Source of the DNA: Nitrospiraceae bacterium
GTDB taxonomy: Bacteria; Nitrospirota_A; Leptospirillia; Leptospirillales; Leptospirillaceae
Reading direction: 5' to 3'
Assembly: GCA_028064945.1 (NCBI GenBank)
Contig: JAPTWQ010000110.1
Coordinates: forward strand, 1 to 11,015
DNA length: 11,015 bases
The position numbers and the translations under genes were made by a program. Positions 1-11,015 of the stretch are shown here, piece by piece (positions within the stretch are counted from its first letter, which is position 1; each line of letters starts with the position of its first letter). Under the pieces are notes generated by a model. It was given only the letters and a program-made list of their open reading frames with translations. It did not search any database and was not told the origin of the DNA.

Positions 1-2
1 CG

Positions 3-203
3 GGAGAGAATCGAATTCAGTGGCTTGAATCTGAAAGAGACCGCCACGACGATCTAATCCAAAAATTAAGAAAAGACCTCAAGGACGCGAAAACAATGCT
101 AAGCGCCAGAATTGTGAGTACAACCATTAAATGGCGAGAAAAACAACCATATCCTGTCGTTAAAATCTATCAAAGTCATCATCCACGATACGTCACTGTC
201 TAG
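3..203 (+). CDS. C-terminal end of an unidentified protein, partial at the window edge
   Basis: An open frame enters from the left edge and stops at a TAG at 201-203, giving 66 residues. The first half is highly charged, with a heptad-like spread of Leu/Ile among Glu, Arg, Asp and Lys (for example WLESERDRHDDLIQKLRKDL), which suggests a helical or coiled-coil segment. The second half is basic and ends PRYVTV. I do not recognise the family, and it does not look like the usual IstB C-terminus. The last third of the frame overlaps direct repeats 1 and 2 of the IS-end-like array at 120-255, so this may be the 3' end of a gene carried inside a mobile element, or a frame that is open by chance. The opposite strand has no long open frame here. 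Confidence 0.3.
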   Translation, partial: GENRIQWLESERDRHDDLIQKLRKDLKDAKTMLSARIVSTTIKWREKQPYPVVKIYQSHHPRYVTV

Positions 204-255
204 AAAAACAACCATAAAATGTCGGACACCCCAAAAAACAAGCATATAATGACGG
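120..255. repeat. Four direct repeats resembling an IS21-type element end
   Basis: Four related units lie in the same orientation: ACAACCATTAAATGGCG (120-136), AAAAACAACCATATCCTGTCG core (139-159), AAAAACAACCATAAAATGTCG core (204-224) and AAAAAACAAGCATATAATGACG core (233-254). The shared core is roughly ACAACCATAAAATGTCG. Multiple spaced transposase-binding repeats near a terminus are characteristic of IS21-family (and Tn7/Mu-like) ends. The polarity and the absence of further units to the right suggest that the element body lies to the left, off the window, with its outer boundary near 255. No transposase gene is visible, so the family assignment is tentative. Confidence 0.45.
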
Positions 256-518
256 ATGCTTATTTCAGCAAGGCATAAGTTTTACAACGGCGGATTCAAA
301 CGAATGTTGTCGCTTTCGTCATCTTCCGTTGTCCACCACTCTGGTACGCATGTCTTTCATGATCAGGGAAGTTGAACATCCGTGACACACGCACTCGACC
401 ATGATACCCTCCCCCATGTTTCGCAACGTTTCGGTCGATGTGCAGAGGTTTCCGCCCTTCCGCGTTTTAACCTCCGTCTGCGTCCGAAAGCCGGTGGCCC
501 GGATGAAATTCTGTCCGA
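256..518. other. Gap with no gene I can support
   Basis: This stretch lies between the repeat array and the 3' end of the minus-strand nucleotidyltransferase remnant. A minus-strand frame (319-564, 81 codons) is open and carries a short CVCHGC cysteine cluster. It overlaps the end of the nucleotidyltransferase frame, has no evident ribosome binding site and matches no family I know. I see no RNA gene or convincing terminator here. Confidence 0.4.
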
Positions 519-1356
519 TTAACGGGGGCGGGAGAAAATGATTTGCGAGTTTTTTACGACCCACTTCATGATCTCCCGGGAATTTTCGTCAAGGTTGCCG
601 AGTCCTGAATCGAAGATGGACTTCCCTTTCGATCCGTACATCTTGAAGAAATCCTTCATGGCCAGAATCATATTTTCTTTCGGAATGACTGAGGCCAGAA
701 CTTCGGCTTGAAGTCCGTCCTTTATCTTTTTGGGATCGTTTTGCCTCTGTGTGCTGATGACGATTTTGTGGATCATATACCGTGACGGAGAGGGAATATT
801 GACCAAGATCCCCATATCGGGGATTGCGGCACGGACTGGTTCTTTCGCGAGATAATCCATGAACTCGAGCGGTTTCGCCATAAATCCGATTTCGTTGACG
901 GATTTGATGTCCTCTGGGCGATCTTCCTTTGGATCGAGCGTTGTCAGGATATCCAGCGTCAGATCCGTTTCCTTGATGGAGAATTGATAGCTTCTGTGTT
1001 TTGGATCTAGCGTCGGAGTGCCGATGAGCGGGATGTTTTTAAGTATCTCCTGCGGATCCACCTTGTCCCGGTCGATGAAAACATCGATCTTTCGGTTATA
1101 GGAGAGATCAATGTCGAGAGTCGCATACGGTTCGCGAGCGACCACATCGTACCCCGTCAGAAAGGGATAGAGGCGAAAGGCCATGGTTCCTACAAGAATC
1201 CCCCCTGCGCTGAATATCCCTGACTTATGCAGTCCTCTCAGGACCTTTTGTTCGTCGCTCTTCGTCCGTGCTATGTTGACTGCGGAGAGCATGGCAACGA
1301 GGTTGTCGATCACCACAGAGTTTCTTTCCACGTGTTTTTCTGCGTCTAGGATATTA
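519..1356 (-). pseudogene. GSU2403-type nucleotidyltransferase-fold protein, N-terminus lost to an IS insertion
   Basis: The minus-strand frame encodes about 279 residues up to the IS junction. The first possible start inside the frame is a GTG at 1329-1331, giving 270 residues. The frame is open further upstream as NILDAEKHVERNSV and then runs into the IS end at 1357, so the true N-terminus is missing. Counting from the GTG, the nucleotidyltransferase core shows GGILVGT at 43-49 and the acidic DIDL at 73-76, the layout seen in PF12281-like (GSU2403) proteins, which are usually about 330-350 residues. The function of this family is not established. The acidic C-terminal half with FFKMYGSKGKSIFDSG looks intact. 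Expression is doubtful because the promoter side has been replaced by the IS. Confidence 0.6.
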
Positions 1357-1376
1357 CTGAGCCATTTTCAAAACTC
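1357..1376. repeat. Left inverted repeat of the IS5/IS4-type element
   Basis: A 20-bp terminus that pairs with 2741-2760 with one mismatch (A at 1364 versus T in the right end). The same terminus recurs at 8983-9002. Confidence 0.85.
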
Positions 1377-1424
1377 CAGCGAGAAGGATTTTAGCTAATA
1401 TCTTTTAATATTAATAACTTACGA

Positions 1425-1453
1425 TTTACTTTTGTCGATCATCTTCGTATAAT
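1425..1453 (+). promoter_or_regulatory. Transposase promoter inside the IS
   Basis: A perfect -10 TATAAT at 1448-1453 is preceded, across a 17-base spacer, by TTTACT at 1425-1430 (4 of 6 matches to TTGACA). It lies 35 bases upstream of the transposase start and is duplicated intact in the partial copy at 9051-9079. Confidence 0.65.
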
Positions 1454-1488
1454 GCATTCATCAACCTTTCTTCCCAAAGGAGTGATGA

Positions 1489-2568
1489 ATGACAGAAAAG
1501 ATCAGTGGTATCTGGAGACGGATTTCGGGGCGCCTTCTTCCCTTTCTGGAACGCGTCCTGCCACCGATGCAGGAACATCACCGGAAGGTGGCGATGATCC
1601 TCGAGTTTGTCCGCCCTGAAGAGATTGTCCGGCAACGATGGGCCGCAACGGGTCGCCCTCCCGTCAACCTGGCCCTGATGGCCCGGGCCTTTGTCGCGAA
1701 GATGGAGCTGAATCTCGATACCACGAAGCGTCTGATCGAGACCCTGAAGTCGGATGACGTTCTCCGACGGATCGTGGGATTCCCGGGGAAGGTTCCCTCG
1801 AACGCCACGTTCTCCCGGACCTTCCATGAGTTCTCCCGGACAAATCTGGCGGGACAGATTCATGAGGCCCTCAAGTCCCGTGTTCTGGATCGAGGAGCCA
1901 TCGTCATTGATACGTCTTTGGATGCGACGGCCATCGAAGGACGAGAGAAGGCGGCGAAGAAAACAGCCCCGGCTTCTTCCCCGTCCGCTCCCCGAAAAGG
2001 AGAGCCCAGACCGGAGAAGGAGAAAACACGGCTTCAAGTCTTTTGCGAACAGAAGCCGTCGACCATCGATCGGGCTCTCCCCAAAGACTGTGACTGGGGC
2101 TGCAAGCGAAACAGCCAGGGCAAGACCGAATATTGGAAGGGATTCAAACTCCCTCTTCTGGTCGCCAATGGAGAGATCCCCCTTTCGGCTGTCCTGACTT
2201 CGGCCTCGGTCCACGATAGCCAGGCCGCTCCCTCTCTTCTCAAGATGGGAGTGCGGAAGGTGACTCCGCTTTACACGGCGATGGATGCGGCCTATGATGC
2301 CCAACCCATCCGGACGCTCTGTCATAATCTGGGCATTGTGCCGTTGATCGATTCCAATCCCCGGGGTCAGGAGAAGATCCCCCTGGATCCCGCCAAGGCG
2401 GAGCGTTACAAGAGTCGATCCTCGGTGGAGCGGGTCAACTCCCTCCTCAAGGAGTGCTTTGGGGGACGGCATGTTCGGGTTCGTGGTCCCGAGAAGGTAT
2501 TCGCCCATCTGATGTTTGGAATCGTGGCCCTGACGGCCACGCAGCTTCTTCGTCTCGGGATGCCGTAG
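1489..2568 (+). CDS. DDE transposase of the IS5/IS4-type element, 359 aa
   Basis: This is the cut-and-paste transposase of the surrounding IS. The start is ATG 1489, with AAAGGAG at 1476-1482 six bases upstream. The RNase H-like DDE core (DDE_Tnp_1 type) shows IDTSLDAT with D141/D145, AMDAAYD with D266, and the C-terminal block YKSRSSVERVNSLLKECFGG with glutamate E314. An N-terminal region of about 130 residues with MQEHHRKV and NATFSRTFHEF is typical of IS5/IS1182-like transposases. A basic, alanine- and proline-rich insert (about 153-180) separates the first acidic block from the rest of the core. Length and motifs look complete, so it is probably functional. The exact ISfinder subgroup cannot be settled by eye. 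Confidence 0.88.
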   Translation: MTEKISGIWRRISGRLLPFLERVLPPMQEHHRKVAMILEFVRPEEIVRQRWAATGRPPVNLALMARAFVAKMELNLDTTKRLIETLKSDDVLRRIVGFPGKVPSNATFSRTFHEFSRTNLAGQIHEALKSRVLDRGAIVIDTSLDATAIEGREKAAKKTAPASSPSAPRKGEPRPEKEKTRLQVFCEQKPSTIDRALPKDCDWGCKRNSQGKTEYWKGFKLPLLVANGEIPLSAVLTSASVHDSQAAPSLLKMGVRKVTPLYTAMDAAYDAQPIRTLCHNLGIVPLIDSNPRGQEKIPLDPAKAERYKSRSSVERVNSLLKECFGGRHVRVRGPEKVFAHLMFGIVALTATQLLRLGMP

Positions 2569-2740
2569 TCGCCTCAGGATTCTCCCTTCTCCAACCGGGA
2601 AGAAAGATCCCCATGGGAGAAAAAGGAGAGATTTGTCTTCACGCAACCTCCAGAGAGCGATTTTTGCCTAAAACGACAAGAAAACGGTGATCGGTCAGTT
2701 AAATAGAAATCAGCTTGACCTTATGCTCAATTAACCGCGT

Positions 2741-2760
2741 GAGTTTTGAAAAAGGCTCAG
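2741..2760. repeat. Right inverted repeat of the IS5/IS4-type element
   Basis: The 20-bp sequence GAGTTTTGAAAAAGGCTCAG is the inverted partner of 1357-1376. The AT-rich piece at 2761-2811 follows, and no copy of the left flanking bases is seen. Confidence 0.85.
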
Positions 2761-2802
2761 CTGTATTCATGTAAATATTCAAGTTAAATCAGGACAGATC
2801 CT

Positions 2803-2811
2803 TATCGCCGA
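2803..2811. repeat. Left copy of the 9-bp target duplication of the ISKra4-type element
   Basis: TATCGCCGA here is repeated exactly at 4446-4454, directly outside the two inverted repeats. A 9-bp duplication fits the ISKra4 group. Confidence 0.85.
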
Positions 2812-2834
2812 GGGTGTGAGACAAATTTTAGGGA
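2812..2834. repeat. Left inverted repeat of the ISKra4-type element
   Basis: A 23-bp terminus identical to the reverse complement of 4423-4445. Confidence 0.9.
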
Positions 2835-2987
2835 TGGCTCTGGTCAATGATTTCCGAGGAGATGGCTAGAAAACATGCTTGTTTGAGAAGCCCTTAGAGA
2901 GGAGACGCTGGACATTCCCCTGGGAATTTGCTAGGGATGAGGGCCATGACGGACATTCCTCCGTCCCCATCCAAAAGGAGATTCCCG

Positions 2988-4361
2988 ATGAGCGATGACA
3001 AGAAAAAGACGCCGAAAGAGGATTTCGATCTGCCCTCTCTTCTTCCCTTCATGACTTCTTTCGTCTCGCCGATGATGCAGCAGGGCTCGCATTTGGGAGC
3101 CATTGAGAGCTCCCTGCGGGATCGGCTGTTGGGAGAAAGCGCCCGAACCTTGGAAGCGAGCCTGAACGAGGAGATCCTTCGATATCCGGCTCCGATGGTC
3201 TGTCCCCGCTGTGGTCGGGCCTTGGAGGACAAAGGGATCAAACCGAAGGAGATCACGACTCTCTTTGGGACGATCACCGTGCGACGACGATACGGGTATT
3301 GCCACCACTGCAAGAAAGGGGACTTTCCCGACGATCGGCGTCTGGGACTCGACGAGTCGGGTCTCTCCCCCGAGGTGAAGCGCTTGAGCGGGCTGTTCGG
3401 GGGAGAGACGGACTTCGCCCGAGGAAGCGAGCTTCTCTGGGAGGCGTCCCGGATTCGTCTGTCGTCCAAACAGCTCCAGCGTGTCTCGGAGTCCCTGGGA
3501 GAAGAGATTGCCCAAGAGGAAGAGGCGGATGTGGGGCCCGATCACCACCCGCTCCCCTTCGGACGGACGATCTATGTCGGGATGGACGGAACCGGAATTC
3601 CGATGCAGGCCCGTGAGACCCGGGGGCGCCGGGGAAAGCAGGCCGATGGCTCCTCCAAGACGCGGGAAGCCAAGATGTGCGACATCTGGGAGGCCAATCG
3701 GGTGAACAAGGAAAAGATCCCCGTGAAGGATCCCGGGTCCGTGAGCTATACCGCCAGCATCGAGAGTGCCGCCCAGAAGGATACGGACCTGGAGCTGTCG
3801 GCCTTTGGCCGTCGGGTCGAGCGGGAAGCGGCCCGGCGAGGAGTCGACAAGGCGGCTCGCATCGTCGTGATCGGGGATGGTGCCCCCTGGATCTGGAACA
3901 TTGCGGGCGAACAGTTCCCTCACGCGATCTGTATCGTCGACCGATTTCATGCCAAACAACACCTCTCCGATCTGTCCAAGGTGATGTTTGGTGCCAAGAG
4001 TGCCAAGGGAGAGAGCTGGACGCGAGAGCGCTATGACGAACTTGATCAGGGACGGATGGACGATCTTCTGAAGAACCTTGCCATCTATGAAAAAACCTTT
4101 CCTGAGGCGAAGCGGTGTCGCGCTTACTTCGAGAACAACCGGGAGAGGAGGCGGTCTCCGGAGTTTTGGGCGCAGGGCCTGTCGACGTCGAGCGGGGTTG
4201 TCGAGGGAGGGTGCAAGTCTGTCGTGGGGGGGCGGCTCAAGAAGTCCGGAATGCACTGGAGCCTTCGGGGAGCCAATAGTATCCTGGCGCTTCGATGCAG
4301 CCTCAAAAGCGGCAGATATGACACATTCTGGAAAAGACGCATGGAAAGGCTGGCGGCATAA
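2988..4361 (+). CDS. ISKra4-family transposase (UPF0236-like), 457 aa
   Basis: ATG 2988 is chosen because AAAAGGAG (2973-2980) lies seven bases upstream; the open frame reaches back to a TTG at 2928 with no comparable site. The N-terminal part carries a zinc-binding region, CPRC at 72-75 and CHHC at 105-108, consistent with a DNA-binding treble-clef or ribbon. The catalytic DDE-like core shows YVGMDGTGIP with D200, VVIGDGAPWIWN with D297, the IVDRFHAKQHL block (D318, H321), and a C-terminal SSGVVEGGCKSVVGGRLK block with E406. These are the hallmark blocks of ISKra4-type transposases, and the length matches the family. No frameshift or internal stop is seen, so the element is probably competent. 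Confidence 0.9.
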   Translation: MSDDKKKTPKEDFDLPSLLPFMTSFVSPMMQQGSHLGAIESSLRDRLLGESARTLEASLNEEILRYPAPMVCPRCGRALEDKGIKPKEITTLFGTITVRRRYGYCHHCKKGDFPDDRRLGLDESGLSPEVKRLSGLFGGETDFARGSELLWEASRIRLSSKQLQRVSESLGEEIAQEEEADVGPDHHPLPFGRTIYVGMDGTGIPMQARETRGRRGKQADGSSKTREAKMCDIWEANRVNKEKIPVKDPGSVSYTASIESAAQKDTDLELSAFGRRVEREAARRGVDKAARIVVIGDGAPWIWNIAGEQFPHAICIVDRFHAKQHLSDLSKVMFGAKSAKGESWTRERYDELDQGRMDDLLKNLAIYEKTFPEAKRCRAYFENNRERRRSPEFWAQGLSTSSGVVEGGCKSVVGGRLKKSGMHWSLRGANSILALRCSLKSGRYDTFWKRRMERLAA

Positions 4362-4422
4362 TCCCCAGGAAAATCCAAGGGAAAATCATGGATGAGAGGC
4401 CATCATATCGATTTTTCAAGGG

Positions 4423-4445
4423 TCCCTAAAATTTGTCTCACACCC
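4423..4445. repeat. Right inverted repeat of the ISKra4-type element
   Basis: A 23-bp terminus that is the perfect inverted copy of 2812-2834, followed directly by the 9-bp duplication at 4446-4454. Confidence 0.9.
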
Positions 4446-4454
4446 TATCGCCGA
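4446..4454. repeat. Right copy of the 9-bp target duplication of the ISKra4-type element
   Basis: TATCGCCGA, identical to 2803-2811. It ends seven bases before the -35 box of the riboswitch-controlled operon. Confidence 0.85.
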
Positions 4455-4461
4455 ACGAGAA

Positions 4462-4492
4462 TTGACAAAGCAAGGGGATGGTCTGGTACACT
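4462..4492 (+). promoter_or_regulatory. Candidate promoter of the riboswitch-led operon
   Basis: A perfect -35 TTGACA at 4462-4467 and an extended -10, TGGTACACT (hexamer TACACT at 4487-4492). The 19-base spacer is longer than ideal, partly offset by the TG extension. Transcription would start near 4499, about 18 bases before the aptamer. The ISKra4 insertion left this promoter intact but removed whatever regulatory DNA lay immediately upstream. Confidence 0.55.
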
Positions 4493-4516
4493 TTCCCCGT
4501 AGCGAGGAATTATAAA

Positions 4517-4593
4517 AAGCAATGGAGTCTGCTTGAACCGCTGGCACGGTATGTCCGTGCCAGATGATGACTCCTTCCCTTGAAAGGAAGGAG
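4517..4593 (+). promoter_or_regulatory. Fluoride (crcB-type) riboswitch, translational ON switch candidate
   Basis: The leader folds in the crcB-motif order. Pseudoknot strand AAGCA (4517-4521) is followed by AUG (4522-4524), P1 GAGUC (4525-4529), pseudoknot partner UGCUU (4530-4534), linker GAACCG (4535-4540), hairpin CUGGCACGG/CCGUGCCAG with a 5-base loop (4541-4563), UGAU (4565-4568), P1 partner GACUC (4569-4573) and CUUC. In known fluoride aptamers the last block is normally CUAC, and the base before AUG is usually G; these are the two deviations. The expression platform is a second hairpin, CUCCUUCC (4571-4578) with GGAAGGAG (4586-4593), which buries the Shine-Dalgarno of the gene at 4599. 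It shares bases with the P1 3' strand, so aptamer folding and SD hiding are mutually exclusive. This predicts that ligand switches translation on. The fold is seen directly; the ligand is inferred from family resemblance. Confidence 0.75.
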
Positions 4594-4598
4594 CCATT

Positions 4599-4814
4599 AT
4601 GGTTACAAATGTGCCGATTTTTTTGCTTTGTTTCGCCTTCTTTCTTGTTTTTCTCCACTACTCCGATCATCCCTTTATCTCCTCCCTGAGCAGCATAGGA
4701 CTGAGCCTCATTGTCCTCTTCGTTCTCCTTTACGCCGCGGGCTACGAATTTTCGACCCAGTGGCCTCACGCCAGCCTGCGCTCCCCCGGCTACTTCCTTC
4801 TTTGGCCGTCATGA
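4599..4814 (+). CDS. 71-aa two-helix membrane protein under the riboswitch, family unknown
   Basis: ATG 4599 sits five bases after the strong SD GGAAGGAG that the riboswitch controls. The protein has two hydrophobic stretches, about residues 5-20 (VPIFLLCFAFFLVFL) and 32-48 (SSIGLSLIVLFVLLYAA), joined by a short polar turn, then a tail of about 22 residues with few charges. It therefore looks like a small inner-membrane helical hairpin. Its TGA (4812-4814) overlaps the ATG of the MFS gene (4811-4813), so the two should be translationally coupled and may act together. It is too short for CrcB/Fluc (about 120 residues, four helices) and lacks that family's motifs. The DUF1656/AaeX small proteins of efflux operons are a comparison for size and place only. 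Function unknown. Confidence 0.65.
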   Translation: MVTNVPIFLLCFAFFLVFLHYSDHPFISSLSSIGLSLIVLFVLLYAAGYEFSTQWPHASLRSPGYFLLWPS

Positions 4815-6322
4815 CATATATCACACGACCTCCGACTCGGGGCATCCTGAGGAACAGGGTCTCCCCCTGGCTGGTCCTCTTTCTCATGATCCTTGGCACG
4901 ACAATGCCCTTGGTCGATACGACCATCATGAATGTTGGACGGTACTGGTTTGTCCGGGCGTTCGATGTTCCAACCTACGAAACCGGCTGGCTGACGGCCG
5001 GATACAGTCTTGCCTTGGCCATGGGAATTCCGCTTTCCCACCGCCTGCGGGGTTTTTTCGAGGAAAGGAACATGTATGCGATAACGACCTGGGCCTTTCT
5101 CACCGGAACGCTGGTCGTCATGAGTTCCACCACCTTGGCCGAAGCGATGATCGGACGCGCGATCGAAGGTCTGTCCGGAGGCATTCTTCTCCCTCTTTCG
5201 ATCACGCTTATCCGGGAATCCTTCCCACAGGAAAAAGTTCCCCTGGCCATTTCCCTATTCACCCTCGCCAATGCCCTGGCCGTCTCTCTGGGACCGACGC
5301 TTGGAGGATATCTGCTGTACGCCTGGGGGTGGCGGTCGGCCTTCTTCGTCAATCTCCCCGTCGGTTTTCTGACGATCATCCTGAGCCAGATCCTTCTCGT
5401 CAACCATCCCCGGCAGGATCCGAAACGATTCGATCTGCCCGGTTTTTTTCTTCTGTGCCTCGCCTCCGGAACCTTCTTCTGGGCCTTCATGGCTGCCGAG
5501 TGGTTCGGATGGCATTCTTTTTCCATCGATCTGGCCTTCGGAATTTCCCTTATCGCTCTTTTTCTTTATGCCCTATGGAGCGCCTTTTTCCCGGACCCCA
5601 TCCTCCCCCTGGACCTTCTTGTACGGCCGAAGTTTCTTCTGACCCTCGCCCTGGTCTTTCTGGTCTCGACATCGGTCTTTGGCCGATTGTATCTCCTGGC
5701 TCCCTTTCTGGAGAGAAACTACCATTTCCAACCGTATCAGGCGGGAGAAATCATTGCCATCGGGGCGTTTTCCGAAATCCTGACGGCCTTTCTCGTTTTC
5801 AGCGATATTCTGGAACGGGTCAATACGCGAATCATATTTCTCGCCGCATGCGGATGTCTTGCCCTCTCGAATATAGCCTATCTCCGGCTGCCGCAGAATG
5901 TCTATTCGGCTCCCATGATTTCCATCCCGCAGATTCTTTTCGGATTCGGACTGGCCCTTTCGCAGTTTTCCCTTGTCCGACTGATCGGTCAGTCGCTCCC
6001 GCAGGAACTGTCCCGCATCGGAGGGGTCTACCAGCAAACTGTCCAGTTTCTGGGAGGAATGTTCGGAACGGTTCTGTGCCGTCATCTGCTCAACAATATT
6101 CCCCCGGTCTTTTTCCTCGCACTTCCCCAGACCTCGCCCCCGGCCGTATCCTCTGTCGACCTTCAGAAAATCGCCTCTCTGGCATATGCGTTTGGTTACA
6201 ACATGATTTTTGAATGGTTGGGGCTCTTTCCTTTGGCCGCGGTTTGTCTTGTTCTTGCGGATTTGCTTTTTCGGGGATTCTTCACAAGACCGCCGAAAAA
6301 TTCTCCGATAGTGAGCCGTTAA
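4811..6322 (+). CDS. DHA2-type MFS exporter (14-TM class), 503 aa
   Basis: A proton-coupled drug or anion efflux permease of the inner membrane, by family. ATG 4811 overlaps the stop of the small membrane gene (ATGA). The frame is open upstream to 4580, but that extension is polar and lies under the riboswitch hairpin. Helix 1 (about 19-38) ends in the DHA2 signature VDTTIMNVG (D36). A degenerate motif A loop, GIPLSHRLRGFFEERN (72-87), replaces the usual G-X3-D-RXGR pattern. GPTLGG at 161-166 is motif C, and WGWRSAFFVNLPVG at 172-185 is the typical DHA2 stretch. About 14 hydrophobic segments span the rest. No HlyD/EmrA adaptor lies nearby, so it is not an ordinary EmrAB operon. Placement behind a fluoride-type riboswitch suggests a role in halide or general acid stress. 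The substrate is not deducible from sequence alone. Confidence 0.85.
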   Translation: MTYITRPPTRGILRNRVSPWLVLFLMILGTTMPLVDTTIMNVGRYWFVRAFDVPTYETGWLTAGYSLALAMGIPLSHRLRGFFEERNMYAITTWAFLTGTLVVMSSTTLAEAMIGRAIEGLSGGILLPLSITLIRESFPQEKVPLAISLFTLANALAVSLGPTLGGYLLYAWGWRSAFFVNLPVGFLTIILSQILLVNHPRQDPKRFDLPGFFLLCLASGTFFWAFMAAEWFGWHSFSIDLAFGISLIALFLYALWSAFFPDPILPLDLLVRPKFLLTLALVFLVSTSVFGRLYLLAPFLERNYHFQPYQAGEIIAIGAFSEILTAFLVFSDILERVNTRIIFLAACGCLALSNIAYLRLPQNVYSAPMISIPQILFGFGLALSQFSLVRLIGQSLPQELSRIGGVYQQTVQFLGGMFGTVLCRHLLNNIPPVFFLALPQTSPPAVSSVDLQKIASLAYAFGYNMIFEWLGLFPLAAVCLVLADLLFRGFFTRPPKNSPIVSR

Positions 6323-7228
6323 TGAGCGATCCGAACCGGCCTAATCTGTTTCGCTATCTCAATCGATGCCGGACCCCGGAAGGGGGATACTGCTATTTTC
6401 GGGATCCGGAAAGCGGAGCGGGGTTCCCCAATGTGGCGGACACCTACTGGGCGCTGTCCGCCTTTCGTTTTCTGGAATCGGATCCTCCCTTTCTTTCCCT
6501 GACGCGCACCTGGCTCCGGAACGAGTTTGAACAAAACGAGGGAGCGCACATTTCCCCCCTATCTTTTCTGGACCATGGGAGGGCTTCGCCTTGCCGGGGC
6601 AGATATTTCGACCAAAGATCGTCTCTGTCTTGCAAAGGAAACAGAAAGACTTTTAAACGACTGGACGACTCCGTCGGCCCTTCCCTCTCTTCTCGCGGAT
6701 CTCGTAGCCGTATTGTCCCTACGAAGGGATCTGGATCTCCCTCTTTCCGAAAATGAGAAGGGGATCCTCAGGGACCTTCTCGCAAGGGAAAAGGTCCTTC
6801 CCCGCCCCCTTCCCCTTCCGGAGCTTCGACGCAGGATCTTCCTGATGGGAGAAACCGGCCTTTTCCGGAACGGGACGATCGAATCAGAATTGTCACTTGA
6901 GCGCGAATACCGGCATCCGGTGTTTGGGTATGTTCTTGTTCCAGGGTCCTCCCGGTCTGACCTGTTCGTTCTCGAATCCGGACTTCTGATGAGAAGAAAT
7001 CATCTCAGCCCCTACGAGACCGAAACGCTGGAAAATCTGATTCTTTCCTGCCAGAGCCGAGAAGGGGGATTCGGGCCGGTCGGAGGAGCCGTGCCTACGC
7101 TCGAGGCAACATGTATGGCCTTTGAACTGCTTTTCCTCCTCTTCCATTTTTCCTCCACAACGGACACCAAAAATGGAAATTTCTCTGCGATATGTCGTGC
7201 CCCAAGTCACGGGCATCGCGAGATGTGA
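6322..7228 (+). pseudogene. Prenyltransferase/squalene-oxidase-repeat protein, frameshifted
   Basis: ATG 6322 overlaps the MFS stop by one base (TAATG), a coupled start. The first frame runs TPEGGYCYFRDPESG, then NVADTYWALSAFRFL, to about residue 78. It loses sense after the six-C tract at 6554-6559, while the next frame continues with YLFWTMGGLRLAGADISTKD and later CQSREGGFG with TLEATCMAFELL. Removing one C joins them into about 301 residues with an EGG(Y/F) alpha-toroid repeat at each end. This fold occurs in protein prenyltransferase beta subunits, squalene-hopene cyclases and related non-enzymatic proteins. I see neither the cyclase DXDD motif nor a clear zinc triad, so an enzymatic role is not supported. 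The shift could be a real mutation, a phase-variable C tract or a sequencing error. Confidence 0.65.
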
Positions 7229-7293
7229 GGTTATAGCAATGAAAAACTGCATCGTATGGAAATCGGGCGAATGAAAAAGCAAGGGTAATCAAT

Positions 7294-7677
7294 ATGATAT
7301 CCCCTCGATACTGTCCGGCCTGTTTCAGGGTAATATCGCCGGAGGATCACCTGTGTCCTTTTTGCAGGACGAATATTCGCGTGTGGTCTCGGACGACCCC
7401 GTATACGCTGAGATTGATCCATGCCCTGAACCATCCGCACTCCGAGGTACGCATGGGAGCCATCATCAGTCTGGGGAAAAGGAAAGACATCGAGGCGGCC
7501 CTTCCTCTCGCCGAATGTGCCCTGCGTTGGCCGACAGATGTGGTTCAGGAACTCGAAATCGTCCAGTCCATCGCCTTATTCCCCTCCTCTCGGGAGAGGG
7601 AGGAGGCGCTGAACCGATTGCTTTCCCATCCGACCCATGCGATCAGAACGGCAGCTGACAGGGCCCGGGAAAAATAA
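7294..7677 (+). CDS. Small zinc-ribbon and HEAT-repeat protein, 127 aa
   Basis: ATG 7294 follows AAGGG (7281-7285) at eight bases. The N-terminus has a rubredoxin-like zinc knuckle, CPAC at 7-10 and CPFC at 21-24, that should bind one zinc ion. The rest looks like two to three short HEAT/PBS-lyase type helical repeats: HSEVRMGAIISLGKRKD, TDVVQELEIVQSIALF and HAIRTAADRA. There is no signal peptide, so it is probably cytoplasmic. Such proteins usually bind partners and are not enzymes. It sits 65 bases after the prenyltransferase-repeat gene and about 40 bases before the tetraheme cytochrome, so it is probably co-transcribed with both. A link to cofactor or cytochrome handling is only a guess from position. 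Confidence 0.65.
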   Translation: MISPRYCPACFRVISPEDHLCPFCRTNIRVWSRTTPYTLRLIHALNHPHSEVRMGAIISLGKRKDIEAALPLAECALRWPTDVVQELEIVQSIALFPSSREREEALNRLLSHPTHAIRTAADRAREK

Positions 7678-7718
7678 AAGCTCCCTACCATGAATTCAAA
7701 AACCATAAGGAGATGGTC

Positions 7719-8282
7719 ATGATTTTCTTCCGCCTTTTATATGGAATTTCTTTGTCATTGGTGGTTCTGCTTCCCATTTTCGGGTTCATTCATGCCCATG
7801 CCAATGAAAATGGCGTCCTCATAAGATATGTGGGGGACGAGACCTGCGAAGTCTGTCATTCCTCCGTCGGAATTGGAAAACAGTTCCAGAAATGGAAACG
7901 GTCACCCCATGCCCGGGCCTACAAGGATCTCGGATCCCCCGAGGCAATGGCCATTGCGCGAAAAATGAACATTGCCGACCCCCGGAAAGACCTTAAATGC
8001 CTTTCCTGCCACACAACAGCGGCAGGGGCCCGCCTTCCGGAAATGATTTCCACATTCAGACCTAGAGACGGGGTTCAATGCGAATCCTGTCATGGCCCCG
8101 GCGAGGATTATGCCCACTTCAGCGTCATGACAGATCCGGAGAAGAGCAGGGAGGCGGGCCTGATAAGCCACCCCGACGAAAAAACCTGCGAATCCTGCCA
8201 CAATCCTTCATCCCCCACCTTCAGGGGATTTGACTTCAAAAAGGATGTTGTCCGGATCGCCCATCCTCTTTCAGGGAGATAA
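7719..8282 (+). CDS. Secreted tetraheme cytochrome c, c554-like, 187 aa
   Basis: The start at ATG 7719 places AAGGAG (7707-7712) six bases upstream; the in-frame ATG at 7713 leaves no spacing. Residues 1-28 form a signal peptide (hydrophobic LYGISLSLVVLLPIFGF, probable cut after HAHA), so the protein acts in the periplasm or at the cell exterior. Four heme c sites are present: CEVCH (43-47), CLSCH (94-98), CESCH (121-125) and CESCH (157-161). The order and SPHARAYKDL after the first heme resemble cytochrome c554-type (PF13435) electron carriers, which typically have about 200 residues. Additional His residues that could be sixth ligands are at 64, 133, 151 and 182. No partner oxidoreductase is in the window. 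A redox role is certain from the heme motifs; the electron donor and acceptor are unknown. Confidence 0.85.
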   Translation: MIFFRLLYGISLSLVVLLPIFGFIHAHANENGVLIRYVGDETCEVCHSSVGIGKQFQKWKRSPHARAYKDLGSPEAMAIARKMNIADPRKDLKCLSCHTTAAGARLPEMISTFRPRDGVQCESCHGPGEDYAHFSVMTDPEKSREAGLISHPDEKTCESCHNPSSPTFRGFDFKKDVVRIAHPLSGR

Positions 8283-8285
8283 ACA

Positions 8286-8982
8286 TTGAAACCGGATCCC
8301 GAAATGGCCGCCCGGGGGACTTCCCCAAGAGAAGGGAGCAACGCAGCGAATTCTCTGGAAGACCGGAGGAAAAAACTGTTCCGATTTGTCATTGGTCTCG
8401 GTTTAGTGAGTCTTTTTGCCGACTTTACGTATGAAGGGGGACGGAGCATCGTGGGCTCCTACCTGGCAGTGATCGGAGCGAGTCCGATCATTGCCAGGTG
8501 TGGTTGCAGGATTCGGAGAACTGATCGGGTTCGGGATACAACTCCTGTCGGGCCCCTATTCCGACAGAACCAAACGTTATTGGCCGTTGATGAGTGCCGG
8601 ATACGTCCTGAATCTGCTGTCCTTACCCTCTCTCTCCCTGGTATCGACCCTGTTCCCGACAATGGGGCTTGTTTTCTCGGAACGATTCGGCAGGGGGCTC
8701 CGGAATCCTCCGCGAGACACGTTGCTGTCTCAGGCCGGACACCTTTTGGGATTCGGTCGCGTATTCGGCTTGCATGAACTGATGGATCAAGGAGGCGCAT
8801 TAATAGGTCCCCTGGCCGTTTCGGTAGCCATTGCCTACGGAGGGTACCGTCTGGGCTTCGAAATTCTGTTTGTTCCGGCCATCATTGCGATGTTCTTTCT
8901 GGTCAGGGCCTACCGACTTTCTCCGGAACAGAGCACGGAGGGGGACCAATCTCTTCCGTATCAATCAAAAAAGACCTATTGG
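8286..8982 (+). pseudogene. Second MFS transporter, frameshifted and truncated by an IS
   Basis: The probable start is TTG 8286, three bases after the cytochrome stop, with AGGGAG (8273-8278) seven bases upstream. The first frame reads IGLGLVSLFADFTYEGGRSI and LAVIGASPIIA, then breaks. The next frame carries GVVAGFGELIGFG from about 8497 on. Removing one base near 8496 joins the two smoothly. The rest shows motif-A-like SGPYSDRTKRYWP, then RFGRGLRNPPRDTLLSQAG and GLHELMDQGGALIGPLAV, typical of the N-terminal six helices of MFS_1 transporters. The gene then runs into the IS copy at 8983, losing the entire C-terminal half, and ends on an IS-encoded tail (SHFQNSSEKDFS). It cannot encode a functional transporter. 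A family relation to the 4811 exporter is distant. Confidence 0.75.
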
Positions 8983-9144
8983 CTGAGCCATTTTCAAAAC
9001 TCCAGCGAGAAGGATTTTAGCTAATATCTTTTAATATTAATGACTTACGATTTACTTTTGTCGATCATCTTCGTATAATGCATTCATCAACCTTTCTTCC
9101 CAAAGGAGTGATGAATGACAGAAAAGATCAGTGGTATCTGGAGA
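8983..9144 (+). mobile_element. 162-bp left-end fragment of the IS at 1357-2760
   Basis: Positions 8983-9144 match 1357-1518 at 161 of 162 bases (the difference is A1417 against G9043) in the same orientation. The fragment keeps the inverted repeat, the TATAAT promoter, the AAAGGAG site and the first ten codons of the transposase. The reading frame then continues in foreign sequence to a TAA at 9181-9183, making a 22-residue chimeric peptide of no evident meaning. Confidence 0.9.
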
Positions 9145-9207
9145 GCCTCTTGCAAAACTCTGAGCCAGCATGTGTACGATTAATAAAAGTGATTATGTAA
9201 TATATTA
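9143..9207 (+). mobile_element. Terminal fragment of a second, related IS
   Basis: GAGCCTCTTGCAAAACTC (9143-9160) matches the inverted repeat of the 1357 element at 15 of 18 positions from its GAGCC onward, but is clearly distinct. AT-rich sequence follows up to the IS66 end at 9208. This looks like the outer end of another IS5-type element that inserted into, or recombined with, the fragment at 8983-9144. Its body is not in the window. Confidence 0.5.
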
Positions 9208-9315
9208 GTAACTACTCACCACCTCCCTTGACAGACGCAACCGGGGCGTCAGCCTCCGAGAAAGAGGGGAGTGGGGAGGAAGAGGAAGGGTCTGAGGGTA
9301 AGGAGTGAGGGGGGC

Positions 9316-10866
9316 TCAGGCGTCGGAAGGAATGAAGGGGCGACCGGCCATGGCATTCATCAGTCCCGTCCAGACGTCGCGGGAGCGTTTTCTGAGAGTG
9401 CCGGTGTAGCTTTTGACGGTGAGAAAGAGCTTGGCTCCTTTTTGGGTGCGGAATCCGCCGGAGACCTTCTGCCGGACCTTGATCATCCGGAGATCCTGTT
9501 CCGCCTGGTTGTTGGTGAAGGGGAGGACGGGGTCGAAGGAAAAGGCGAGGACCTGGCGGGAGTATTCTTCGAGGCGCCGGAGGAGGTTCTGGGCGGGGGT
9601 GGCCTTGGTTCGTCCTCGCCCTTTTTTGGGCTGAGGCCGACCGGCCTCTTCCCATCCCCGGGAGAGGAGAGCCTGGAAGCGTCCCAGGATCTCCTCTCGT
9701 TCGGCCTCACTGGCCAGAGAGGTCCGGGAGGAGGTTTTCTCCTTGAGGTCGAGCAGGAAGGCGGCCATCTCCAAGGGCCAGACATGATGGTCGAGCTCGG
9801 CGATCGCCTTCAGCTCCCGGAGAATATGGGCGTTGCAAAAGGCATGCGTTGACGGAATAGAGATGTAGGGGGCCCAGAAATCGGAGACGAGGGCTCCCTC
9901 GACATAGGGAGCCACGCCCAAAGCGTCTATGCCCTCCATGCCCCGCTTTTCGTGAAGCCCCAGGAGAGTCAGTCGCGAGGTCGAGGCGACATGGCACCAG
10001 ACGTTGCGACCGTTCACGCGGAGGCTGGTCTCGTCGACATGAACCACGGGAGCGCTCTTCAAAAACTCTCGGGTGGAGTGCACAAAAGGGGCGAGCTGCT
10101 GGTCGATTATCTGGCAGGCCCGCAGGATCGTCCCTTCGCTCACGACGGCCCCGAAGAGATCGGAACCCATCTGACGCACCCGGCCCAGCGGAATTCCCTG
10201 ATCCTGATGGAGGTAGACGAGATAGCTGAGAAATCGGAGTCCATACTGGGTGGGCGCCGTGACACCCGGAGGAGCCGGAGCGGTGACCGTCGTCTGGCAG
10301 GAGGGGCAGCAGACTTTGCCCAGGCGATATTCCGTCACCACAAGGCGGGGCTCGGGGAGATCAGAGACCTGTCGTCGCTCATACCCGGCGACCGGCAGGC
10401 GGGAGAGATCTTCTCCGCAGGAGCAGCGCGTCACGGGAATCTCCACCACCGTGTCGGGAGTCTCCACCATCAGGAGGGTGTCGCCTTTGTGGCCGGGTTG
10501 GCCTCCGGGCTTCTTCCCCGACGGAGTCCGGAGACTTTGAGGGGAGGGCTTTCGATACCCGTCGCTTGAGGGGGGCTTGGAGCTGTTCTGGGAGTTTTTC
10601 TTGAGCTGCCTTTCGAGTTCCTGGATGCGAGCCTCTTTCTCGGCGAGAAGAATATCCTTCTCTTCAATCCGTGTGGTCAGCACGGCGACTTTTTGGATCA
10701 TCTCATCGAGTCGGGTCTTGAGCTGCTGGATCTCGGACAGGAGGGAGGCCGTGCTGCTCTTCCAGAAGGTCACGAGACGGGCGACCCCGGGGATCTTGAG
10801 ACACGGCGAGATCGTGTCTTCCTGGGGAAGAAGGGGATCTTCTCTTGGTGTCGCGGGTTCTTCCAT
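9316..10866 (-). CDS. tnpC: IS66-family transposase TnpC, 516 aa
   Basis: Reading leftward, the protein has an N-terminal coiled coil (about 40-90: SLLSEIQQLK to ELERQLKKNS). The IS66 linker NSSKPPSSDGY and GKKPGGQPGHKG follows, then a zinc-binding region (CSC at 148-150, CCPSC at 186-190). The DDE core has HVDETSLRV (D278), VSDFWAPY (D329), the CNAHILREL block (344-352) and PFTNNQAEQDLRMIK with E456, ending in the short IS66 C-terminal element. All key residues are present and the length is normal, so it is probably active. The ATG at 10864-10866 is preceded by GAGGATCCGGAG; the SD spacing is not ideal, but no better start is seen. Homologous IS66 transposases with tnpA/tnpB partners exist, but here tnpC is alone. 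Confidence 0.9.
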   Translation of the reverse strand: MEEPATPREDPLLPQEDTISPCLKIPGVARLVTFWKSSTASLLSEIQQLKTRLDEMIQKVAVLTTRIEEKDILLAEKEARIQELERQLKKNSQNSSKPPSSDGYRKPSPQSLRTPSGKKPGGQPGHKGDTLLMVETPDTVVEIPVTRCSCGEDLSRLPVAGYERRQVSDLPEPRLVVTEYRLGKVCCPSCQTTVTAPAPPGVTAPTQYGLRFLSYLVYLHQDQGIPLGRVRQMGSDLFGAVVSEGTILRACQIIDQQLAPFVHSTREFLKSAPVVHVDETSLRVNGRNVWCHVASTSRLTLLGLHEKRGMEGIDALGVAPYVEGALVSDFWAPYISIPSTHAFCNAHILRELKAIAELDHHVWPLEMAAFLLDLKEKTSSRTSLASEAEREEILGRFQALLSRGWEEAGRPQPKKGRGRTKATPAQNLLRRLEEYSRQVLAFSFDPVLPFTNNQAEQDLRMIKVRQKVSGGFRTQKGAKLFLTVKSYTGTLRKRSRDVWTGLMNAMAGRPFIPSDA

Positions 10867-10889
10867 GGCTCCGGATCCTCGGTCGATAA

Positions 10890-10911
10890 GGGCACAGAAT
10901 CTTGTGTGCCC
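10890..10911 (-). promoter_or_regulatory. Hairpin in the IS66 transposase leader
   Basis: GGGCACA (10890-10896) pairs with TGTGCCC (10905-10911) across an 8-base loop. It overlaps the expected transcription start of the promoter at 10914-10942. Transcripts entering from outside the IS would carry the full stem, whereas native transcripts would lack much of it. This resembles the way some ISs damp read-through expression; the role is inferred. Confidence 0.35.
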
Positions 10912-10913
10912 CT

Positions 10914-10942
10914 ATCGTAGAGGAATTCTCGGCCAATGTCCA
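10914..10942 (-). promoter_or_regulatory. Promoter of the IS66 transposase
   Basis: On the minus strand TGGACA (complement of 10937-10942, 5 of 6 matches to -35) is followed, with a 17-base spacer, by TACGAT (complement of 10914-10919, 4 of 6 matches to -10). It lies about 50 bases upstream of the transposase ATG. Confidence 0.5.
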
Positions 10943-11015
10943 GAGGGGGGGAGGAGAAAAAGATCCCCGGGGATTTTTATGCACCCAAGGGGGGGGTGAG
11001 TAGTTACGTGGCCCG

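Follow-up and report, generated by a model that had tools for sequence, protein, structure and literature searches.

Fluoride riboswitches precede the genes of an EmrAB-TolC-like system in Leptospirillum-type Nitrospirota

Results

A fluoride riboswitch ahead of a small membrane protein and an MFS permease

We analyzed a stretch of 11,015 nucleotides from a Nitrospiraceae bacterium (assembly GCA_028064945.1, contig JAPTWQ010000110.1, positions 1 to 11,015; hereafter "the window"). It contains a fluoride riboswitch followed by a gene for a small membrane protein and an overlapping gene for a permease of the major facilitator superfamily (MFS). A first-pass annotation of this DNA had proposed that the output of the leader is a tiny membrane protein and an MFS permease of the DHA2 type, with neither CrcB nor CLC-F, and this description of the output holds. 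The features of the locus are as follows.

4509–4583 (+): fluoride riboswitch aptamer (RF01734; cmscan, 41.3 bits, gathering score 34)
4517–4534 (+): nested hairpin AAGCA/UGCUU, with a loop holding AUG and the 5′ pseudoknot strand GGAGUC (4524–4529)
4541–4563 (+): second hairpin of 9 bp, CUGGCACGG (4541–4549) with CCGUGCCAG (4555–4563), from the minimum free energy (MFE) fold and a coordinate check
4569–4574 (+): 3′ pseudoknot strand GACUCC, of which the hairpin hiding the Shine-Dalgarno (SD) sequence uses the same CUCC
4571–4593 (+): competing hairpin, CUCCUUCC (4571–4578) with GGAAGGAG (4586–4593), masking the SD; putative OFF state
4599–4814 (+): small protein of 71 amino acids with two hydrophobic stretches and no recognized family
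4811–6322 (+): EmrB-like DHA2 MFS permease of 503 amino acids (Pfam MFS_1, TIGR00711, AlphaFold2 model)
7713–8282 (+): multihaem cytochrome c554-like gene

The match to RF01734 covers the model at full length (positions 1–64), with E = 8.4e-9 for the whole window. Its score exceeds the gathering threshold, confirming the crcB-type aptamer that had been proposed from the order of its elements; the three other cmscan matches in the window all fell under the gathering scores of their own families. A chance match was ruled out on the basis of this score and of the same-strand recurrence of the leader ahead of orthologues, described below. Both helices of the original drawing are real, although their names were reversed: by the Rfam structure line, AAGCA (4517–4521) and UGCUU (4530–4534) form the nested hairpin, and GGAGUC and GACUCC form the pseudoknot. 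A coordinate check confirmed these strands and placed AUG at 4522–4524, and UGAUG is located at 4565–4569.

Two deviations from the consensus had also been flagged. The A before AUG is present, but it is part of a compensated change (A-U for G-C) found in 3 of 21 aligned leaders. The CUUC that replaces CUAC differs by one base, at a site that is variable in relatives too (CUGC in loci L027 and L030; CUGA in L038). AUG, UGAUGAC, and the CU following the pseudoknot were invariant in all 21 leaders. Just ahead of the window leader, TTGACA and TACACT with 19 bases between them were seen by eye at 4462–4492, and comparable pairs were seen upstream of the two nearest relatives (L027 and L029); a strict sigma-70 scan, with spacing limited to 16–18 bases, reported no promoter.

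The alignment of 21 leaders comprised the window, seven others preceding a small protein and an MFS permease (together class A), and 13 of the group tied to an EmrA-like adaptor (class B). Across the two helices, 93.9% of the cells were paired, compared with 41.6–62.3% when the partners were slid by one to three columns. Pairing reached 100% in the pseudoknot and 86.7% in the nested hairpin, whose outermost pair was missing in 14 leaders. Two-sided changes were observed at three of the five nested-hairpin pairs and at none of the six pseudoknot pairs. Shuffled controls, which are only indicative because the alignment rows are related, reached the real percentage of paired cells in 4 of 500 cases; none of 500 reached the real number of cells with a two-sided change or the real covariation score.

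The start of the MFS gene overlaps the stop of the small open reading frame (ORF) in an ATGA. The permease scored 124.2 bits against Pfam MFS_1, and its AlphaFold2 model (mean predicted local distance difference test, pLDDT, 86; predicted template modeling score, pTM, 0.87) had as its best PDB match by Foldseek the EmrB subunit of the EmrAB-TolC complex (8zal_J, TM 0.79). The small protein gave only weak, below-cut-off matches to Pfam, with E values up to 5, and no Pfam or NCBIfam family was recognized. Three relatives of it were found in the protein database, and a C-terminal [FY]E...[QD]WP motif is common to all eight class A homologues.

A predicted switch at the ribosome-binding site

In the predicted MFE fold of the window leader, CUCCUUCC pairs with GGAAGGAG, which is the SD of the ORF starting at 4599; the start codon, too, lies in a paired region. 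The fold has an energy of −42.4 kcal/mol (z = −7.1), and none of 200 shuffles was as low; the folding program cannot model the pseudoknot. The SD-hiding hairpin in competition with an aptamer helix, as drawn at first pass, was recovered. When class A leaders were folded from the pseudoknot strand onward, this strand paired with the SD region in the MFE structure of all eight. For seven of these, no more than 1.8% of 500 shuffles did as well, and for the remaining one (L025) 5.8% did; these shuffles preserved base composition only. In class B, most leaders show downstream pairing of the pseudoknot strand, although for 5 of 13 it did not surpass 17% of shuffles, and the pairing could be linked to no start codon.

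Since the pseudoknot strand is unable to sit in both structures, ligand binding should free the SD, and we infer that the window leader acts as a translational ON switch. In the absence of fluoride, the CUCC of the 3′ pseudoknot strand would pair with the SD and the start codon would be buried as well. Upon fluoride binding, the pseudoknot would form and take up the 3′ strand, opening the ribosome site for joint translation of the small membrane protein and of the MFS permease encoded by the overlapping gene.

The riboswitch is tied to one EmrAB-TolC-like system across the order

Relatives of the window MFS are encoded at 23 genome loci (records named Nitrospirae bacterium or Leptospirillum sp.), and RF01734 was found upstream of the MFS gene at six of them. 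We then considered 21 genomes of the order, which was chosen around one MFS relative and is represented mostly by draft metagenome-assembled genomes (MAGs) of unstated completeness. The riboswitch search scored at most 150 candidates per genome in the order and 12 per genome in the phylum, so misses are possible. RF01734 exceeded its cut-off in 20 copies, distributed over 17 of the 21 genomes, with scores of 34.3–50.2 bits in the order compared with up to 65.6 bits elsewhere in the phylum; two sub-threshold hits of about 22 bits (L044 and L045) were set aside on score and are uncounted. The first-pass annotation had suggested looking for the same leader upstream of homologues, and it indeed recurs before orthologues in seven genomes of the order: seven of the 20 riboswitches precede the small protein and MFS genes (L024–L029 and L039). 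Twelve others precede an EmrA-like adaptor, and one lies at a contig end (L041, in genome G017, whose adaptor is on another contig). None of the 20 was seen before CrcB or CLC, and the order has no other recognized riboswitch target.

A complete operon, consisting of the riboswitch, the small protein, the MFS permease, EmrA, and TolC and followed by a cytochrome c554-like gene, is present in three genomes (G009, on a contig of 2.56 Mb, G004, and G005). Three more (G001, G002, and G006) have the system split between contigs, with one riboswitch for the MFS half and another for the adaptor half. In relatives, genes for an EmrA-like adaptor and a TolC-like channel either extend the operon or make up a second one under a separate fluoride riboswitch. 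Of 16 genomes, 15 have a TolC-type gene adjoining the EmrA orthologue; in the other (G020), the contig ends within EmrA. At the two EmrA-TolC loci that were profiled, HlyD_D23 and OEP were over their Pfam cut-offs, and the nearest PDB matches of the adaptor are EmrA structures (4tko/8zar). Genes that look by eye like malate dehydrogenase, lpt, and rpoN were seen near several EmrA-TolC loci and near the complete G009 operon (L098, L102, L103, L105, and others); these shared neighbors suggest one ancestral locus that later split.

The linkage is specific to this system. The EmrA orthologue is full-length in 16 of the 21 genomes, all 16 of which carry the riboswitch (15 on the same contig). In G003, an MFS-type riboswitch is found on a contig ending after the MFS gene, with only a fragment of the EmrA orthologue elsewhere, and the orthologue was found in none of the four genomes without a detected riboswitch. 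A second EmrA-type protein, with about half the score, is encoded in 20 of the 21 genomes, and 19 of these have a second MFS gene next to it; RF01734 was absent from all 14 of these loci that were scanned, and at the remaining six the genome search gave no match over the cut-off. In the MFS tree, the eight riboswitch-linked proteins and the 15 unlinked ones separate at one branch with support of 98/97. The truncated L022 and L023 were excluded from this tree, to which the proteins of the window and of G009 were added along with three outgroups; the program issued a long-branch warning. Charged or clade-specific residues distinguishing linked from unlinked permeases (e.g., 59, 119, 231, and 303) are no proof of substrate.

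Over the span of this linkage, the MFS is about 45–80% identical (80% in L001), and the protein cluster of the window MFS occurs on 24 contigs. The MFS alignment (A1) included 37 of the 120 listed hits. Plasmid relatives of the MFS were seen only below 60% identity. Viral contigs were rejected as carriers: 23 stretches matched a pattern, and none encodes a relative.

Recognized fluoride exporters in the order

CrcB (PF02537) was detected in 1 of the 21 order genomes (G005), compared with 10 of 14 control genomes, and no RF01734 match lies in the 3.3-kb region surrounding the G005 copy. Each of the 21 genomes encodes one CLC protein. The possibility that this protein is a hidden CLC-F was not supported: none of the three CLC-F signatures used here (GNNLI/GMGLI, GREGT/V, and GEVTP, taken from PMC11139923) is present in any of the 21 proteins. 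All 21 contain the gate motif GGSAG(L/M)EG. The closest PDB matches of the G009 CLC are chloride CLCs, at 63 bits compared with 39 for CLC-F, and in NCBIfam it is ClcB-like, below the cut-off. A study of acid resistance in Leptospirillum regards its single CLC as a chloride/proton antiporter; the words fluoride, riboswitch, and EmrA occur nowhere in its main text (PMC7231039). By comparison, a review states that more than 85% of surveyed strains have a CrcB or CLC-F exporter (PMC11139923). In a study of bioleaching, iron oxidation by L. ferriphilum was delayed by fluoride at 1.0 mM and came nearly to a halt at 1.5 mM (PMC12831704).

Riboswitch targets elsewhere in the phylum

Outside the order, 138 genomes (155 less 17) carried RF01734 over the cut-off. 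We sampled 90 loci from these (L109–L198), one riboswitch per genome, from the best score downward; 88 gave an ORF, the target being defined as the longest ORF starting within 500 nt and hence not necessarily the first gene. The 88 targets were dominated by Na_H_Exchanger (44) and ABC_tran (18), followed by Dynamin-family GTPases (8), DUF190 (4), CRCB (3), and others in smaller numbers. MFS_1, HlyD, and OEP are absent from the 18 families listed for these targets, and the MFS profile matched none of the 88; the sample gave no sign of a phylum-wide MFS target. The ABC_tran and Dynamin targets may merit separate study.

Other features of the window

Counterparts of the window's cytochrome c554-like gene stand downstream of the TolC-like gene in all three complete operons (L098, L004, and L005). 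Directly after the MFS gene, two overlapping ORFs in different frames, at 6214–6756 and 6527–7228 (+), look like one frame-broken gene; neither piece matches Pfam or NCBIfam, and their place is occupied in the three complete operons by the adaptor and channel genes. Further downstream, the ORF at 8491–9024 is a second MFS ORF that is cut short and ends in a stretch of 34 bases (8991–9024, +) identical to 1365–1398 (+), each copy forming the end of an ORF. The protein start MHSSTFLPKGVMNDRKDQWYLE recurs in the ORFs at 1452–1619 and 9078–9200; together with the 34-base repeat, this resembles duplicates, or the ends, of a single insertion sequence. The locus is flanked by genes for an NTP_transf_8 nucleotidyltransferase (519–1331, −), an ISKra4-family transposase (2928–4361, +), and an IS66-family transposase (9316–10866, −).

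Discussion

We consider it probable that fluoride switches on the translation of an EmrAB-TolC-like pump serving fluoride tolerance. Computation supplies the aptamer, the competing hairpin, the gene order, the orthology, and the absence of other recognized targets in the order; fluoride binding, the direction of the switch, the joining of the products into one pump, and the part played in tolerance are inferred. The earlier reading of the locus is supported but incomplete, as the output in relatives appears, on sequence and structural resemblance, to be an EmrAB-TolC-like tripartite system. A number of observations weigh against our interpretation. Of the 17 riboswitch-bearing genomes, 10 showed this element only on the adaptor-channel half (in one case at a contig end), with no riboswitch-linked MFS, so that a partner MFS there would lie outside riboswitch control. 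In class B, a distance of about 200 nt separates the aptamer from the EmrA start, and we could discern no SD switch; the window itself contains no adaptor or channel gene. The nearest NCBIfam model of the window MFS, EmrB/DHA2 (TIGR00711), scored 186.6 bits, below its cut-off of 230.2, and we therefore file the protein as EmrB-like only; at the two profiled EmrA-TolC loci, TIGR00998 (EmrA) and TIGR01844 (TolC) were likewise the best NCBIfam models but under their cut-offs. Covariation, expected in both helices at first pass, is found in the nested helix but is weak in the pseudoknot, whose pairs are invariant or vary on one side only. Two of the five pair measures did not rise above the shuffles: 75 of 500 shuffles reached the real number of pairs with a two-sided change, and all 500 the real number of further pair types. 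Finally, the draft-MAG status of the genomes makes absences provisional.

The cargo of the putative pump allows for several explanations. EmrAB-type pumps handle organic drugs and weak acids, E. coli EmrAB takes weak-acid uncouplers, and HF is itself a weak acid, so either kind of substrate is possible; to our knowledge, there is no known MFS fluoride exporter. It is a substantial possibility, if somewhat short of an even one, that the riboswitch works while the pump exports something other than fluoride, such as organic weak acids, uncouplers, or metabolites accumulating upon enzyme inhibition by fluoride or acidification of the cell by HF, with fluoride serving as an alarm signal only. In its favor, organic drugs and weak acids are cargo of EmrAB-type pumps, and fluoride riboswitches govern many non-exporters, as illustrated by the sampled Nitrospirota targets, half of which are Na_H_Exchanger and only three CRCB. 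Moreover, a benzoate transporter of Pseudomonas putida raised fluoride tolerance, its overexpression not being accompanied by lower intracellular fluoride (PMC13104614). This explanation leaves a fluoride exporter missing from the picture, given the lack of a recognized CLC-F and the single CrcB among 21 genomes, and the riboswitch is tied to this one system alone. The opposite proposal, that the pump and the small membrane protein constitute a third kind of fluoride exporter, replacing Fluc and CLC-F in extreme acidophiles and exporting fluoride through both membranes in the form of F−, HF, or a metal-fluoride complex, strikes us as rather unlikely. Prior knowledge slightly favors a different weak acid or a toxic product as the exported substrate over fluoride itself.

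Two further explanations concern the state of the locus. The window copy could be a decaying remnant among insertion sequences rather than a working unit, given the transposase genes on both sides, the two-frame ORFs at 6214–7228, the cut second MFS ORF ending at 9024, and the lack of an adaptor or channel gene. The leader, the small ORF, and the MFS gene are nonetheless open and conserved, as reflected in the 80% identity of the MFS in L001, its cluster on 24 contigs, and the small-protein motif in eight of eight homologues, and we regard decay as very improbable. Alternatively, the aptamer may have drifted, retaining its fold while losing its fluoride response or acquiring another ligand. 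The CUUC for CUAC change and the middling scores of several relatives would fit such drift; set against them are the invariance of AUG, UGAUGAC, and the post-pseudoknot CU and the linkage to one gene system over deep divergence of the MFS, which together make drift very improbable.

The system of which we consider fluoride the probable inducer resembles several known ones in part. It shares with other members of RF01734, the crcB motif, a score over the gathering threshold, the order of the elements, and a pseudoknot strand shared with the expression platform. It differs in its targets, typically CrcB/Fluc, CLC-F, and Na+/H+ antiporters (PMC11139923), with mutS, K+ or Cl− transport, and formate hydrogen lyase also named (PMC2864571), and here an EmrAB-TolC-like system with a new small protein. 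An operon of Enterobacter cloacae FRM also places several genes under one fluoride riboswitch and was shown to contribute to fluoride resistance; unlike the present system, it contains CrcB, and no such pump is named for it (PMC5533749). In Clostridioides difficile, an FMN riboswitch variant, and hence a known class with a different ligand, precedes an EmrB/QacA-type MFS gene of unclear substrate, whereas the fluoride riboswitch of that species precedes CLC and NhaP genes (PMC11477304). BenE-I of P. putida, which transports organic acids, increases tolerance to fluoride without CrcB; in that study it is not described as riboswitch-controlled, and fluoride export by it was not supported (PMC13104614).

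Relative to EmrAB-TolC itself, the likeness lies in the MFS fold, the adaptor, and the TolC-type OEP protein, and the differences in the sub-cut-off NCBIfam scores, the extra small membrane protein heading the operon, and control by a fluoride riboswitch instead of a protein regulator. EmrR is such a regulator of EmrAB. Our literature search found no link of a fluoride riboswitch to EmrA, EmrB, or MFS genes, the target list of Baker et al. 2012 lying outside this comparison, and no paper joining fluoride, Leptospirillum, and riboswitch.

A fluoride riboswitch before multidrug-type pump genes points to an unrecognized way of surviving fluoride. When the pH is low, fluoride enters cells in the form of HF, yet this iron-oxidizing lineage has no recognized CLC-F and has CrcB in only 1 of 21 genomes. 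Used as a pointer, the fluoride riboswitch leads to a concrete candidate system, including a small protein of no known family, and how extreme acidophiles cope with HF becomes a question that may be tested with one operon and one reporter.
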